A DNA stretch of 64,000 nt. It comes from Thermoplasmata archaeon (GTDB taxonomy: Archaea; Thermoplasmatota; Thermoplasmata; Thermoplasmatales; Thermoplasmataceae). Below are positions 29,681 through 36,551 of this stretch, piece by piece. Numbering within the stretch: the stretch's first letter is position 1; each line of letters begins with the position of its first letter. The notes beneath the pieces were generated by a model. That model did no database searches, was not told the DNA's origin, and worked only from the letters and a program-made list of their open reading frames with translations. The position numbers were made by a program, and so were the translations under genes. Location: positions 1-64,000 of the forward strand of contig JAJYRA010000031.1 of NCBI GenBank assembly GCA_021794355.1, in the 5' to 3' direction.

Positions 29681-31576
29681 ATGGAAAAAATTAATATAAG
29701 AATGCATTCACCATTAATGCCCTCGCGGAAGTCAATTTCACTTGGCGAATTAAACTCTGAGGAATATTTGAAAATAGGTCACCACGGACTTATTGCAAGT
29801 AATCGAACTGCAGCTCTCATTGGGATGAATGGTACAATAGACTGGGCATGTTTACCAAATTTCAATTCAGACCCCATCTTTGATTCTATTCTTGATTCTA
29901 AGAAAGGGGGTAGGTTTGTATTACAGCCCTCTCTTACGAATGATGTAGAGGCTTCTCAATTCTATATTGATAACACCAATATATTGGTTACCGAGTTTAA
30001 AAAATATAATCAGGTCATTTTAAGAATTACGGATTTCATACCAACCTCAAAATTCACAACCATCAATTTCCCGGAAATTCATAGATATGTTGAAACGCCC
30101 GTTGAAGGTATTAAGATTCATTCAGAGGTAAAACTCTCCTTTCACTTTGGACAAAAGTCCCACAATATATCAAAATACAAATTTGGTTACCTTTTCAATA
30201 GTGAAAATGAATACGTGGGGCTCTCTTCTGACTTTCCCTTCAGAAATGAAAAGGGATATCTCATTTCTGATTTCTTCACAAAGAAAAAGGGTAGTGGTTG
30301 GATGATTACATTCTATGGAATGCAACACATTCAAAAAACAACAGACTATAAGTCATTTGAACTCATGGAACACACTGCCAATTCTCAAAAAGAATGGATC
30401 TCTTCTGGTAATTTTCCCATCACCCATAATCATGAAGTCATAAGATCAGCTCTAGTGTTAAAAGGATTAATATATGAGCCAACAGGATTAATGGTGGCAG
30501 CACCGACCACCAGTCTCCCCGAATCCATAGGAGGCGACAGAAATTACGATTATCGTTTTTCTTGGGTAAGGGATGTGGCGTATGTAATTGAATCTCTTAC
30601 AATGCTTGGTTACAAAAATGAAGCGGTAAAATTTCTTTATGACGTGATGGAAAGAGTTAAGATGGAGGGTCATCTTAAGACCATTTATTCCATCAATGAA
30701 TACGATAATTTGGAAGAAAAAATAGTAGATTATGAAGGTTATAAAAAGTCTGCCCCAGTTAGGGTTGGAAATTTGGCTGCAAGTCAATTGCAGATAGATG
30801 AGTATGGTAGTCTGATTAACGCGGTATATCATGTTGCCTATAGTGGCGGGTTGATAAACACCTATCTATGGGACTTTGTCAGGACAATGCTTGCAAAACT
30901 TACAGAAATTTGGAGGTTTGGGGACTCAAGTATCTGGGAGTTCAGGACGGAGCCGTTACACTATACCTATTCAAAGGCGATCGCTTGGTCTGCTTTTCAA
31001 AGAGGAGTTGATATGTCGAAAAAGTTGGGTTTAACTGCACCAGTGGCAGAATGGAAGGCTCAAGCAGACACAATAAAGAAGGAATTGATGCAAAATGCTT
31101 TTGACAAGGAGGAAAATTCATTCATGCAGTATTACGGTTCTAAATCTACTGATGCATCCCTGTTAAGATTGCCTCTTCTTGGATTCTTACCCCCAAGTCA
31201 CCCGGCAATTACAGGTACCGTTAAGAAAATTGAACAGGATCTCATGGTAAATGGATATTTATTCAAGAGATACTCTGAAGAGGATAACTTCTCCTCAAAG
31301 GATAATGCATTCACTTTACTTTCATTCTGGTACGTGGAAGATCTTATTATTATGGGAAAGGTCAATAAGGCAAAGGAAGTTCTTGAAAGAATTATATCAC
31401 ATTCTAATTATTTAGGTCTAATATCTGAAGAAATTGATCTTAAAACGGGGGAACTTCTGGGAAACTTCCCTCAAGCATTAAGTCATTTAGGGCTTATTCG
31501 TGCAACGGTAAGGTTGAACAGGGTTTCCAAAAATCGTGGAAGGATAGGGCACGAGTTAAAATTTACTTTATTTTAG
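29681..31576 (+). CDS. Glycoside hydrolase family 15 (glucoamylase/trehalase-like)
   Basis: GHHGLIASNRTAALIGMNGTIDWACLP; AAPTTSLPESIGGDRNYDYRFSWVRD; GNFPQALSHLGLI. Confidence 0.93.
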   Translation: MEKINIRMHSPLMPSRKSISLGELNSEEYLKIGHHGLIASNRTAALIGMNGTIDWACLPNFNSDPIFDSILDSKKGGRFVLQPSLTNDVEASQFYIDNTNILVTEFKKYNQVILRITDFIPTSKFTTINFPEIHRYVETPVEGIKIHSEVKLSFHFGQKSHNISKYKFGYLFNSENEYVGLSSDFPFRNEKGYLISDFFTKKKGSGWMITFYGMQHIQKTTDYKSFELMEHTANSQKEWISSGNFPITHNHEVIRSALVLKGLIYEPTGLMVAAPTTSLPESIGGDRNYDYRFSWVRDVAYVIESLTMLGYKNEAVKFLYDVMERVKMEGHLKTIYSINEYDNLEEKIVDYEGYKKSAPVRVGNLAASQLQIDEYGSLINAVYHVAYSGGLINTYLWDFVRTMLAKLTEIWRFGDSSIWEFRTEPLHYTYSKAIAWSAFQRGVDMSKKLGLTAPVAEWKAQADTIKKELMQNAFDKEENSFMQYYGSKSTDASLLRLPLLGFLPPSHPAITGTVKKIEQDLMVNGYLFKRYSEEDNFSSKDNAFTLLSFWYVEDLIIMGKVNKAKEVLERIISHSNYLGLISEEIDLKTGELLGNFPQALSHLGLIRATVRLNRVSKNRGRIGHELKFTLF

Positions 31577-31908: not shown

Positions 31909-33324
31909 ATGGAGAATCCAATAGAACCAAAACCAAAGAAAATGAGTAAACTGATTCCCATAATAGCGATCGTGGTTGTTATTGTGGTGGTGGGGTCCTT
32001 TGTTGGGCTGGATTATAAAAACCTATTCCCCCCCTCTACTACCCCTACTACCTCTAACCAGGTCCTATATGTATATCCGGGAGTCAGCGGGCCGGCTAAT
32101 TCGGAGCATCTTCTAGGAGGATGTGTAGTTGCTGAGATGAAGGGTGGGTCAACACCTGCGGCTTCGGCGCAGTTAATGGCATATCTTTTGAATCCTGCTG
32201 TACAAAAAGCGTGTGAAGCAAAGACTGGGTTTATACCGGTTGATAAGTCTTCTTATACTATCAATCCAAGCAAAACTGTACCTACCATATATAGTTCATC
32301 TAACAGCACAGCTCAAGTTTCTTACTATACCAGTATAAGCACTGCCGATGAATCATACGTTACAGGAGTGATTAATAACTTCCAAAAGGATTATCCAAAC
32401 ATTCACGTCTCTGTCAGTTTTGTAACTGCCCCATCAATAGTTGAAGAAGTATCATCCCTAGTAACTGGGAACTCACATGCAAACGTGGTTATGACTATAG
32501 ACAACTTAGATATCGGAGTATTGTTCTATGATGGCTATCTTGCACCATTAAATGGGGCTAAGATTACAGCTGGTGAAGGAACAATAAGCTCGGTGACAAA
32601 TTTGACCAATTATGAAGTTTCCGTCTTCCATGGAGAGTATTTCCTAACACAGTTAGTAAACATACCACTAGTATGGATGGATTACACAGCCATGCAGGGT
32701 GCAGGAATAACAAAAGTTCCAACAACTTACAGTCAGCTGTACACAGACGCTAAAATACTGGATAAGAAATATGGGGTAGGAGAAATTAACATACAGGGAC
32801 ATGGTGGATCAAGCACACCTACTGAGTTATATCAGTGGATGGTACAGTTTGGTGGAAATCCAATGATGTTCAATGACAGTGGTGATATACAGGCAATGGA
32901 ATACATGTACAACCTTAGCCAATACTTTTCACCAGACTATAAGACATCGTACTGGGCAACATATACAGGCTTAGCTTCAAACTCTTACACAATGATGTAT
33001 TATCAATGGCCAGGTTCAGTAAATCTAACTAAACTTGGAATGAAAAGTTACAATAGTACAGACACTGTTGCAAATGTTTCACTGAAGGCAATCCAAGGAG
33101 GAGTCTTCTTAAGAAGCCCGGTTTCCTGGATAGGTCAGTGGCAAACGCTTATGGACAAGGCATGGGTGAAAATAGTTGAGGATCATGTTTCCTCCTGGAC
33201 TAGTATTCCTTCTATATTGCAGTCTGAAAATAGTGCAATGAACTCTTTCCTGCAAACAAACTACAATCAGCAGGTAGCTAATGAATATGAAAACGGAACG
33301 TACGCACCCATAGAGGGAGCGTAA
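31909..33324 (+). CDS. ABC transporter extracellular sugar-binding protein with rearranged segment order
   Basis: N-terminal anchor; SBP core VSYYTSISTADESYVTGVINNFQKDYPNIHVSV and C-terminal GVFLRSPVSWIGQWQTLMDKAWVKIV; C-lobe-like GG...AASAQLMAYLLNPAVQKACEAKTGFIPV lies near the N-terminus. Confidence 0.88.
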   Translation: MENPIEPKPKKMSKLIPIIAIVVVIVVVGSFVGLDYKNLFPPSTTPTTSNQVLYVYPGVSGPANSEHLLGGCVVAEMKGGSTPAASAQLMAYLLNPAVQKACEAKTGFIPVDKSSYTINPSKTVPTIYSSSNSTAQVSYYTSISTADESYVTGVINNFQKDYPNIHVSVSFVTAPSIVEEVSSLVTGNSHANVVMTIDNLDIGVLFYDGYLAPLNGAKITAGEGTISSVTNLTNYEVSVFHGEYFLTQLVNIPLVWMDYTAMQGAGITKVPTTYSQLYTDAKILDKKYGVGEINIQGHGGSSTPTELYQWMVQFGGNPMMFNDSGDIQAMEYMYNLSQYFSPDYKTSYWATYTGLASNSYTMMYYQWPGSVNLTKLGMKSYNSTDTVANVSLKAIQGGVFLRSPVSWIGQWQTLMDKAWVKIVEDHVSSWTSIPSILQSENSAMNSFLQTNYNQQVANEYENGTYAPIEGA

Positions 33325-33803: not shown

Positions 33804-34817
33804 CTATTTTACAACCTTTTCTAAAACCCCTTCAGAATTATATATATTATACCTATTGAGATCAAATCCTACGGTATCATTTATCTCATATGGTTTAGAC
33901 GTTTTAAGAACAACTCTCTTCTCTCCGTCATCTTGCTCAGGGTTTTGGGATTCAATAAAGCAACTGATATGATAACTACCTTCTTCGTGTGTACACAATT
34001 CGACCCTTCCACTAACGGATTTGCCTTCTTTTATCCAGTAGTCTCTAAACCCTATTATTTTGTCAGGTAAATTGAGATATTCACCATCGATAAAATTCAT
34101 TGGGTATTCACCCACAAAATCTCCAAGCCACTTCGATCTTGGCTCATTTAAGATTTGATCATATTCACCTATCTGTTCGATCCTTCCATCTCTCAAAACA
34201 GCCACTCTATCTGACAATGTAGCCGCCTCTATTTGATCATGGGTAACATATACAAACGTGTGCCCCAATTCCTTTTGAATCTTTTTAAGTTCTGCCCTAG
34301 CTGTATATCTAACTCTAGCATCAAGGTTACTTAATGGTTCATCCAAAAGGAAAATCTTAGGATCTCTAACCAGAGCTCTAGCCAGGGCAACTCTCTGTTT
34401 TTGACCACCACTAAGCTGATTTATACCCCTTTGCAGTACTTCACTTATTTTCAAAGTTTCAGCAATTGCTTCAATTTTTCCTTTTATTTTACTTTTTTCA
34501 AATTTAGCCATTTTCAATGGGAATTGGATATTTTGATACACTGTCATATTGGGATATAACGCATAATTTTGAAATACCATAGCTATGTTTCTTTTGTTTG
34601 GAGGTCTCTTACTGATATCCTGGCCATCGAGAAATATTTTACCAGCAGTAAGATCTTCAATTCCAACGGTGGTTCTTAATAGTGTGCTTTTTCCCATGCC
34701 TGACGGACCAAGAATGACCAAAAATTCCCCATCGTATACTTCTAAATCTAACTTATTCAGAACCCTTTTGTTACCATACAATTTATAAACGTTCTCATAA
34801 CGCATTTTTACATTCAT
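33804..34817 (-). CDS. ABC transporter ATP-binding protein (MalK/UgpC type)
   Basis: Walker A GPSGMGKST, signature LSGGQKQRVALARAL, Walker B IFLLDEPLSNLD. Confidence 0.95.
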   Translation of the reverse strand: MNVKMRYENVYKLYGNKRVLNKLDLEVYDGEFLVILGPSGMGKSTLLRTTVGIEDLTAGKIFLDGQDISKRPPNKRNIAMVFQNYALYPNMTVYQNIQFPLKMAKFEKSKIKGKIEAIAETLKISEVLQRGINQLSGGQKQRVALARALVRDPKIFLLDEPLSNLDARVRYTARAELKKIQKELGHTFVYVTHDQIEAATLSDRVAVLRDGRIEQIGEYDQILNEPRSKWLGDFVGEYPMNFIDGEYLNLPDKIIGFRDYWIKEGKSVSGRVELCTHEEGSYHISCFIESQNPEQDDGEKRVVLKTSKPYEINDTVGFDLNRYNIYNSEGVLEKVVK

Positions 34818-35656
34818 CCTACAAGACCTCCTGAAAGATATGAACCTTTCAAATATTTCTGCAATATAATGGCAAGAATGATTACCGGGATGGTGGCAAC
34901 CAATGCAAATGTCGCAGACTCCAAGGGTAGATTCCTTGATACATAGTTATATAAAGTTACTGGAAAAGTTGAGTCTGTTGGAACTATTGGGGCAATAATA
35001 ACTGCATATGTAAACTCATCCCAAGAAGTCATCCATGCCAGTAAAAAAGCTACCATAATTGGCACTTTCATCATCGGTAGAAGTATTCTTGAAAATGTTG
35101 ATGAAAATGATGCTCCATCAACTCTTGCCTGATATTCCAGATCCCTAGGAAGACTTCTGAAACCACTAAGGGATATAAAAACAGACAGGGGAAGAACAAC
35201 TAATTCCTGAGCAAAGGCAACTCCAAATACTGTATTGTCTAAATTAGCATGCAAAAAGTAGATGGATATGGGAATGGCAATGACCAGACCAGGCATCATA
35301 TTTATTATGAATAGAAACACAATTAACTTATTAGATATTCCAGAAGTCAATTTTGAAAGCCCATATCCCGCTGGTATCCCTAACCCTAGAGCTATTCCTC
35401 CAACTAAAAACGCAACTTCAAGGCTTCTTTCAAGAGGTCCAACAAGATCAACCTCCTTAAATGACTGTGTTATATTTTGAAGCGTGAAAGCCAAAGGAAT
35501 TTGAGCAGGATATATTCTGTCGAAGGTTAAGTACGCAGGTTGAACTACATATATAATCAAAATCCATAGTGGGTAAATGAAAACTATAGACAGAATAAGG
35601 ACAACAATATAAGTACTCCAGTGACCCTTTCCTTCATCTGACATGGTCCTTTGCAC
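34814..35656 (-). CDS. Sugar ABC transporter permease (MalG-like)
   Basis: EYQARVDGASFSSTFSRILLPMMKVPIM, EAA-like loop of carbohydrate permeases. Confidence 0.92.
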   Translation of the reverse strand: MQRTMSDEGKGHWSTYIVVLILSIVFIYPLWILIIYVVQPAYLTFDRIYPAQIPLAFTLQNITQSFKEVDLVGPLERSLEVAFLVGGIALGLGIPAGYGLSKLTSGISNKLIVFLFIINMMPGLVIAIPISIYFLHANLDNTVFGVAFAQELVVLPLSVFISLSGFRSLPRDLEYQARVDGASFSSTFSRILLPMMKVPIMVAFLLAWMTSWDEFTYAVIIAPIVPTDSTFPVTLYNYVSRNLPLESATFALVATIPVIILAIILQKYLKGSYLSGGLVG

Positions 35657-36551
35657 CCCCTAATTTTACAACAATTATAGAATAGAGCATTATTATGGCT
35701 AAAAGCACAGTTGCTGCGGCATATGATATATTTCTAGTGAGGGACGACGAGTAGTTCTCATAAATAAGTGTGTTCAGGATTAATGGATGATATCCTATGA
35801 TAACCAATGGCAAAGCAAATATATTGAATTCACTCACTCCTCTTACCAGAAGCGCTATTGACATTATGGGTGCTATGTTGGGAAGTGTTATGTGAACGAA
35901 CCTATTAAATGATCCTGCACCATCAACTGATGCAGCCTCATATAGGGAAGGGGGCAAAGAAGATAATCCACCATACAGAATCAATGCTACTAAAGGGGTA
36001 TTCTTCCAAAAATCGGAAAACATTACAACACCTAATGATGATGAATTTGTATAAAACCAGTCAATCGGTCTCAACCCCAATCCTACTAAAGCTGAATTTG
36101 CATAGCCACCAACTGCTTGAAATATTATGGAAAAGACAAAGGCACTAACTACCGTTGATATTCCAAGTGGTATTATGACTAAGGTGGAAAAGGCCTTTTT
36201 CCCCTTGAAAGGCTTAACAAGGACCATCGCTATTGCCAGTGCGATAAATAACTGAATTAAGAGGGCACCAACACTTACAAGAAGTGTGTTGATTAATGCC
36301 CCATATAACCCATAACTGGGAAGGGCATAATAATTTGCCAGTGTGAACCCGTGGCGTCCTATAAAGCTGTCATAAACAACCGTAATTGCAGGTACTATTG
36401 CAAGACCTATCACATAAACCAATGCTGGGATTGCAAAAATAAGGTAAAAAATATCTTTCTTAAATTCTTTCTTAAACCGTTGACCGCGCGATAAAGAAGA
36501 TGGATCTCCTTGGTCAGCATTATTTAATTTTTCAATAGTACTACTCTCCAT
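35634..36551 (-). CDS. Sugar ABC transporter permease (MalF-like)
   Basis: LYEAASVDGAGSFNRFVHITLPNIAPIM EAA loop. Confidence 0.92.
   Translation of the reverse strand: MESSTIEKLNNADQGDPSSLSRGQRFKKEFKKDIFYLIFAIPALVYVIGLAIVPAITVVYDSFIGRHGFTLANYYALPSYGLYGALINTLLVSVGALLIQLFIALAIAMVLVKPFKGKKAFSTLVIIPLGISTVVSAFVFSIIFQAVGGYANSALVGLGLRPIDWFYTNSSSLGVVMFSDFWKNTPLVALILYGGLSSLPPSLYEAASVDGAGSFNRFVHITLPNIAPIMSIALLVRGVSEFNIFALPLVIIGYHPLILNTLIYENYSSSLTRNISYAAATVLLAIIMLYSIIVVKLGGAKDHVR

Follow-up and report, generated by a model that had tools for sequence, protein, structure and literature searches.

A non-circular permutation in a membrane-anchored family-1 solute-binding protein of Thermoplasmata archaea

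The 64,000-nucleotide stretch of archaeal DNA analysed here (the window) encodes a family-1 (cluster-D type) solute-binding protein that is non-circularly permuted: all segments of the family-1 profile are present, but they follow one another in the order X, A, C instead of the canonical A, X, C (Table 1). Taken as a whole, the evidence makes it very probable that this is the membrane-anchored sugar-binding protein of a CUT1-type importer, permuted once in its history and keeping the ordinary two-lobed fold of its relatives.

Segment order of the binding protein

A canonical-order profile HMM was built from ten usual-order homologues and compared with the window protein, which is encoded by an uninterrupted ORF. 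Three pieces of the protein match, namely residues 129-385 (profile positions 42-307, 221.9 bits), residues 47-123 (positions 304-380, 29.5 bits), and residues 387-468 (positions 383-466, 57.8 bits), and together they tile the profile without loss, in shuffled order. Shifting residues ~50-128 to position ~385 produces one continuous match of 344.8-349.7 bits, while the remaining block orders, including true cyclic shifts, reach 220.8-268.0 bits with the same HMM, and the top scorers among 300 random 74-residue moves are near-copies of the same X move. A circular permutation was ruled out, since no cyclic shift of A-X-C yields X-A-C.

The same reordering improves the E-value of the Pfam SBP_bac_8 match from 2.1e-8 to 1.7e-13 and that of the top PDB hit from 8.7e-4 to 1.1e-5. 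In the natural order, SBP_bac_8 and SBP_bac_1 matches of the whole protein are confined to residues 145-379; the gathering scores of the two family-1 models (PF01547, PF13416) are exceeded, at 34.7 vs 27 bits for one and 33.1 vs 26 bits for the other, and the reordered protein scores 51.5 and 40.3 bits. Block X alone matches positions 211-269 of the 279 in SBP_bac_8, and in PDB entry 9lff the stretch 318-381 is the counterpart of residues 66-130, both being late parts of the family, whereas residues 155-379 match SBP_bac_8 positions 3-202.

Block X, which reads QVLYVYPG...GFIPVDKSSY, lies after the membrane anchor and before the N-lobe in the window protein, whereas in ordinary relatives it separates the QWP region from GVFLRxP. 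At that usual place no X is found, and QWPGSVNLTKLGMKSYNST runs directly into LKAIQGGVFLRSPVSWI. A preceding sequence-only reading had already described the ORF, the transmembrane anchor, the PPSTTPTTS linker and the front block, all of which were confirmed at their positions, as was the absence of the block before GVFLRxP. Its proposal that an internal segment, and not the whole C-terminus, had been relocated is borne out by the tiling profile pieces and by the score gain on reordering, from 221.9 to ~350 bits. The block had been placed at residues 51-116; profile matches and seams extend its end to about residue 122-130, a range within which the 3′ edge is uncertain.

Table 1. Coordinates of the permuted binding-protein gene, its segments, and neighbouring genes in the window
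Feature	Position	Strand	Basis
Permuted family-1 solute-binding protein, 471 aa	31909..33324	+	ORF, Pfam, profile matches
N-terminal membrane anchor, residues 15-35	31951..32013	+	Hydropathy, mean KD 2.73; helix 15-39 in AlphaFold model
Ser/Thr/Pro linker 1 (including PPSTTPTTS), residues 36-49	32014..32055	+	
Relocated block X, residues 50 to ~128	32056..32292	+	Canonical HMM 304-380; Pfam SBP_bac_8 211-269; seams
Block A, residues ~129-385: first N-lobe segment, hinge I, C-lobe up to QWP region	32293..33063	+	Canonical HMM 42-307
Seam where relatives carry X, residues ~385-387	33061..33069	+	
Block C, residues ~387-468: C-terminal segment starting near VANVSLKAIQGGVFLRSP	33067..33312	+	Canonical HMM 383-466
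Partner ABC ATPase, GlcV/MalK/UgpC-like	33804..34817	-	Conserved beside each permuted gene whose neighbourhood was examined
Partner permease 2, BPD_transp_1	34814..35656	-	Pfam, neighbourhood comparison
Partner permease 1, BPD_transp_1	35634..36551	-	Pfam, neighbourhood comparison
Trehalase-like GH15 neighbour, TREH_N + Glyco_hydro_15	29681..31576	+	Domain matches, neighbourhood comparison

Conservation and phylogeny of the permuted order

The X-A-C order is present in 26 intact full-length genes from 26 genomes (that of the window and 25 orthologues), and this conservation places it far beyond chance. The orthologues, 52-84% identical where measured, come from ten genera of one family, and four more copies, in pieces (in genomes G003, G090, G105, and G018), likewise have X in front. 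A permuted copy in G018 (L021/L028, G018:C8:85783-87209) is broken over several reading frames, reflecting either decay or sequencing error. All 27 permuted sequences compared with the canonical HMM match it in the order X, A, C and tile its coordinates, whereas 28 usual-order homologues from families f1, f3, f14, and f15 each yield one continuous match. The permuted and canonical forms are ~40% identical, occur within one archaeal class, and are found together in one genome (G026); in 969 genome searches of overlapping sets, every permuted copy belonged to family f1. The window's own genome has a second binding protein of the same superfamily (L002, G000:C16:4323-5597), which is of ordinary order, 33% identical to the window protein, and placed in a far more distant clade.

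Permuted and ordinary sequences separate with a bootstrap value of 100 whether trees are built from all columns, from X alone or from the rest alone. Because all three trees support this separation at that level, the simplest reading of these alignments is that the relocation arose once, in the ancestor of a group within one Thermoplasmata family. Mean identity within the permuted clade is 0.556 for X vs 0.589 for the rest, and dN in X is close to that of the rest for the pairs computed, with dS saturated in most pairs. These comparisons bear on another explanation of the front block, namely that the protein gained X from a different solute-binding protein as an additional N-terminal domain, the original segment having been lost and the fold of the body altered. 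Such an origin would fit the N-terminal location of X and the two linkers that flank it, but we consider it improbable, since X tiles exactly with the absent profile positions, is conserved like the remainder of the protein, and gives, as does the remainder, a tree with one permuted clade among the same canonical relatives. A distant paralogue as the source of X was disfavoured by the X-only tree and the identities.

Base composition and cysteines were also considered. In the window gene, the GC content of X is 0.46 vs 0.40 in the rest, and GC3 is 0.36 vs 0.37. The excess lies at codon positions 1 and 2 (+0.10), the mean difference at position 3 being -0.04. The elevated GC of X is therefore attributable to amino-acid composition, and a foreign GC-rich insert was ruled out because GC3 is not raised. 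The relocated DNA is more GC-rich, as had been remarked from the sequence, and composition accounts for this hint. Cys72 (32122-32124) and Cys102 (32212-32214) are present together in 16 of 27 sequences; Cys102 never occurs without Cys72, four sequences have Asp and Tyr at these positions, and the others have one Cys or neither. Cys72 occupies the Asp position of the GGD motif in ordinary relatives. The cysteine pair noted earlier is real, and it may form a disulfide in some members; a universal disulfide was ruled out by the 16 of 27 count.

Lobe and hinge assignment of block X

The best solved sequence relative of the ordinary sister group is TdCIBP (9xf5), for which the published boundaries are N-I 53-168, hinge I 169-171, C-I 172-315, hinge II 316-319, N-II 320-385, hinge III 386-393, and C-II 394-432 (PMC13084667). 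The Gly-Gly of the LGG motif aligns at 9xf5 chain residues 320-321, assuming that chain numbering equals that of the paper. From these boundaries and the alignment, residues 51-65 of the window protein would correspond to the end of C-I, residues ~66-69 to hinge II, and residues from 70 onward to N-II. In CMMBP, the N-domain comprises residues 31-143 and 303-358, and sugar is bound via the main chain of the hinge residue Gly301 (PMC7676653). The Gly-Gly of block X (residues 70 and 71), invariant in a 15-sequence alignment, is taken to be equivalent to this hinge Gly301 region. By comparison with both relatives, X is assigned mainly to the N-lobe and hinge, as the last C-lobe strand, the hinge II Gly-Gly, and the second N-lobe segment, and the initial description of a C-lobe segment is mostly wrong.

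In MalE, the N-lobe is formed by residues 1-109 and 264-309 and the C-lobe by residues 114-258 and 316-370. The MalE/CMMBP boundaries put the 3′ edge of X near hinge III, implying removal of one interlobe crossing; on this convention, hinge crossing III would be lost and the three crossings would be reduced to two. Hinge III boundaries differ among published relatives, and while mapping onto MalE/CMMBP implies a cut hinge III, the TdCIBP boundaries (PMC13084667) would make helix 387-397 part of the N-lobe, so that the number of crossings would not drop. An arrangement with both lobes fully contiguous (three crossings to one) was dropped because X starts with a C-lobe strand.

Predicted structures

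Among solved structures, those nearest to the canonical sister group are the cluster D sugar binders 1eu8, 9xf5, and GacH, and the nearest to the permuted protein is GacH. An AlphaFold model of the permuted protein, computed with 15 permuted sequences, has a pLDDT of 53.9 and a pTM of 0.48, with most of the C-lobe below 50; that of an ordinary relative, computed with 10 sequences, has values of 64.2 and 0.66 and aligns end to end with 1eu8, a trehalose/maltose-binding protein (436 columns, TM 0.70). Foldseek matched the low-confidence permuted model to cluster D proteins over part of the chain only, as expected of an order-dependent comparison, yet a poor model would give the same result. The predicted secondary structure of X (strands 53-57 and 72-77, helices 83-93 and 96-106) agrees with the corresponding series of the ordinary relative (strands 310-313 and 328-332, helices 340-350 and 353-362), and in both models confidence is highest in the pieces N-I and X/N-II. 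The shared strand-helix series and these confident pieces are supportive of canonical packing of X, although they do not prove it.

Transporter neighbourhood and candidate ligand

Permease and ATPase genes like those at 33804-36551 adjoin the binding-protein gene in every permuted neighbourhood examined. In the window and in genomes G009, G011, and G028, the binding-protein gene has a trehalase-like GH15 gene as its immediate neighbour; in three more, the GH15 gene lies within ~10 kb. Judging from these neighbours and the fold, the protein probably binds an alpha-glucoside, for example trehalose or maltose. The GH15 neighbour in the window scores 378 bits on NCBIfam TreH1, below its cutoff of 820. 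In the proteome of Cuniculiplasma divulgatum, the CUT1-family ATPase CSP5_0849 is expressed (PMC7285479); its number fits the locus position in G009, suggesting that it is the ATPase of this locus.

At ordinary loci (L079-L084), the binding-protein gene points the same way as the permease genes, whereas at most permuted loci (L065-L078) it is on the opposite strand, with exceptions in G099 and G008. This strand difference suggests that the move of X coincided with or preceded a rearrangement of the locus.

Proposed mechanism and origin

Based on these observations, we propose that X, which normally follows the QWP region, was shifted to a position behind the membrane anchor and ahead of the first N-lobe strand, and that the C-lobe was closed directly at the vacated site. 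Most likely, the chain adopts the two-lobed shape of ordinary sugar-binding proteins, with X in its usual place, the end of X being connected to the start of the N-lobe by a new linker of ~15-20 residues (about PSKTVPTIYSSSNSTAQ). The point of membrane tethering would thereby shift from the first N-lobe strand to X. Sugar would be caught extracytoplasmically by lobe closure and passed to the adjacent permeases and ATPase. Two routes could have led to this order: X may have been duplicated in frame to the 5′ end and the original copy then lost, or tandem copies of the gene may have fused and been partly deleted. None of the genomes searched showed a gene with X in both positions, as a duplication intermediate would have.

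Attachment via a flexible stretch of ~15-20 residues would also allow X to complete the N-lobe of a neighbouring molecule in a domain-swapped dimer or oligomer, and swapped elements have been seen in circularly permuted ribose-binding-protein constructs (PMC10601554); we regard this as very unlikely here, since the linker appears long enough for X to reach its site within one molecule. An assembly or annotation artefact has a negligible chance of accounting for the order, for although several source genomes are fragmented metagenome bins, the order is common to all 26 intact genes, including those on the single-contig genomes G009 (1,938,699 bp) and G089 (1,859,113 bp), which refutes it, upholding the earlier argument for an intact gene and contradicting a misassembly with close homologues that keep the block in its usual place.

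The permuted protein could further represent a distinct subclass of cluster D, having two instead of three crossings and a relocated tether, with changes in how the hinge works and in how sugar is delivered to a dedicated transporter; we put the chance of this at a little under even.

Relation to known systems and significance

Canonical cluster D-I proteins (TMBP 1eu8, GacH 3jzj, CMMBP 7bvt, and TdCIBP 9xf5; PF01547, PF13416) share with the window protein all segments, the secondary-structure series, the Gly-Gly hinge motif, and permease and ATPase partners, and the anchor is as in archaeal relatives; the window protein differs in being X-A-C, not A-X-C, and in having a second linker. Its nearest precedent is TpMglB-2 (Tp0684) of Treponema pallidum, a tethered glucose-binding protein designated ‘Type Ic / cluster Bc’, in which a circular permutation has added a fourth crossing and for which tethering was proposed as a reason for the permutation (PMC4990184). 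Both are naturally permuted, tethered sugar-binding proteins of ABC importers in which hinge crossings and the tether point would be affected. However, TpMglB-2 is circularly permuted and belongs to cluster B (Type I), whereas the window protein is non-circularly permuted, belongs to cluster D, and likely differs in the effect on crossings. Core elements have also been reordered within the same superfamily by the domain dislocation between type I and type II binding-protein folds (Fukami-Kobayashi 1999, as related in PMC10601554); as presented there, that is an ancient fold-level change, whereas the two orders described here are those of homologues with ~40% identity from one archaeal class.

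In a survey of non-sequential cases among similar proteins, 95.5% were circular permutations, and about 1% of cases were in only seven families (PMC2213659). Like the non-circular swaps of that survey, the present case is a fragment swap other than a circular permutation. No report of this permutation was found in the literature covered, with most subscription papers outside that coverage.

Among proteins of similar sequence, non-circular permutations are rare (PMC2213659). The present case shows that profile searches split or miss proteins that carry them. Since both orders are found in close archaea, and even in one genome, at ~40% identity, a direct comparison can test how chain order affects folding, hinge bending, and transport. 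After TpMglB-2, this is a second natural case to bear on tethering as a driver of binding-protein rewiring.
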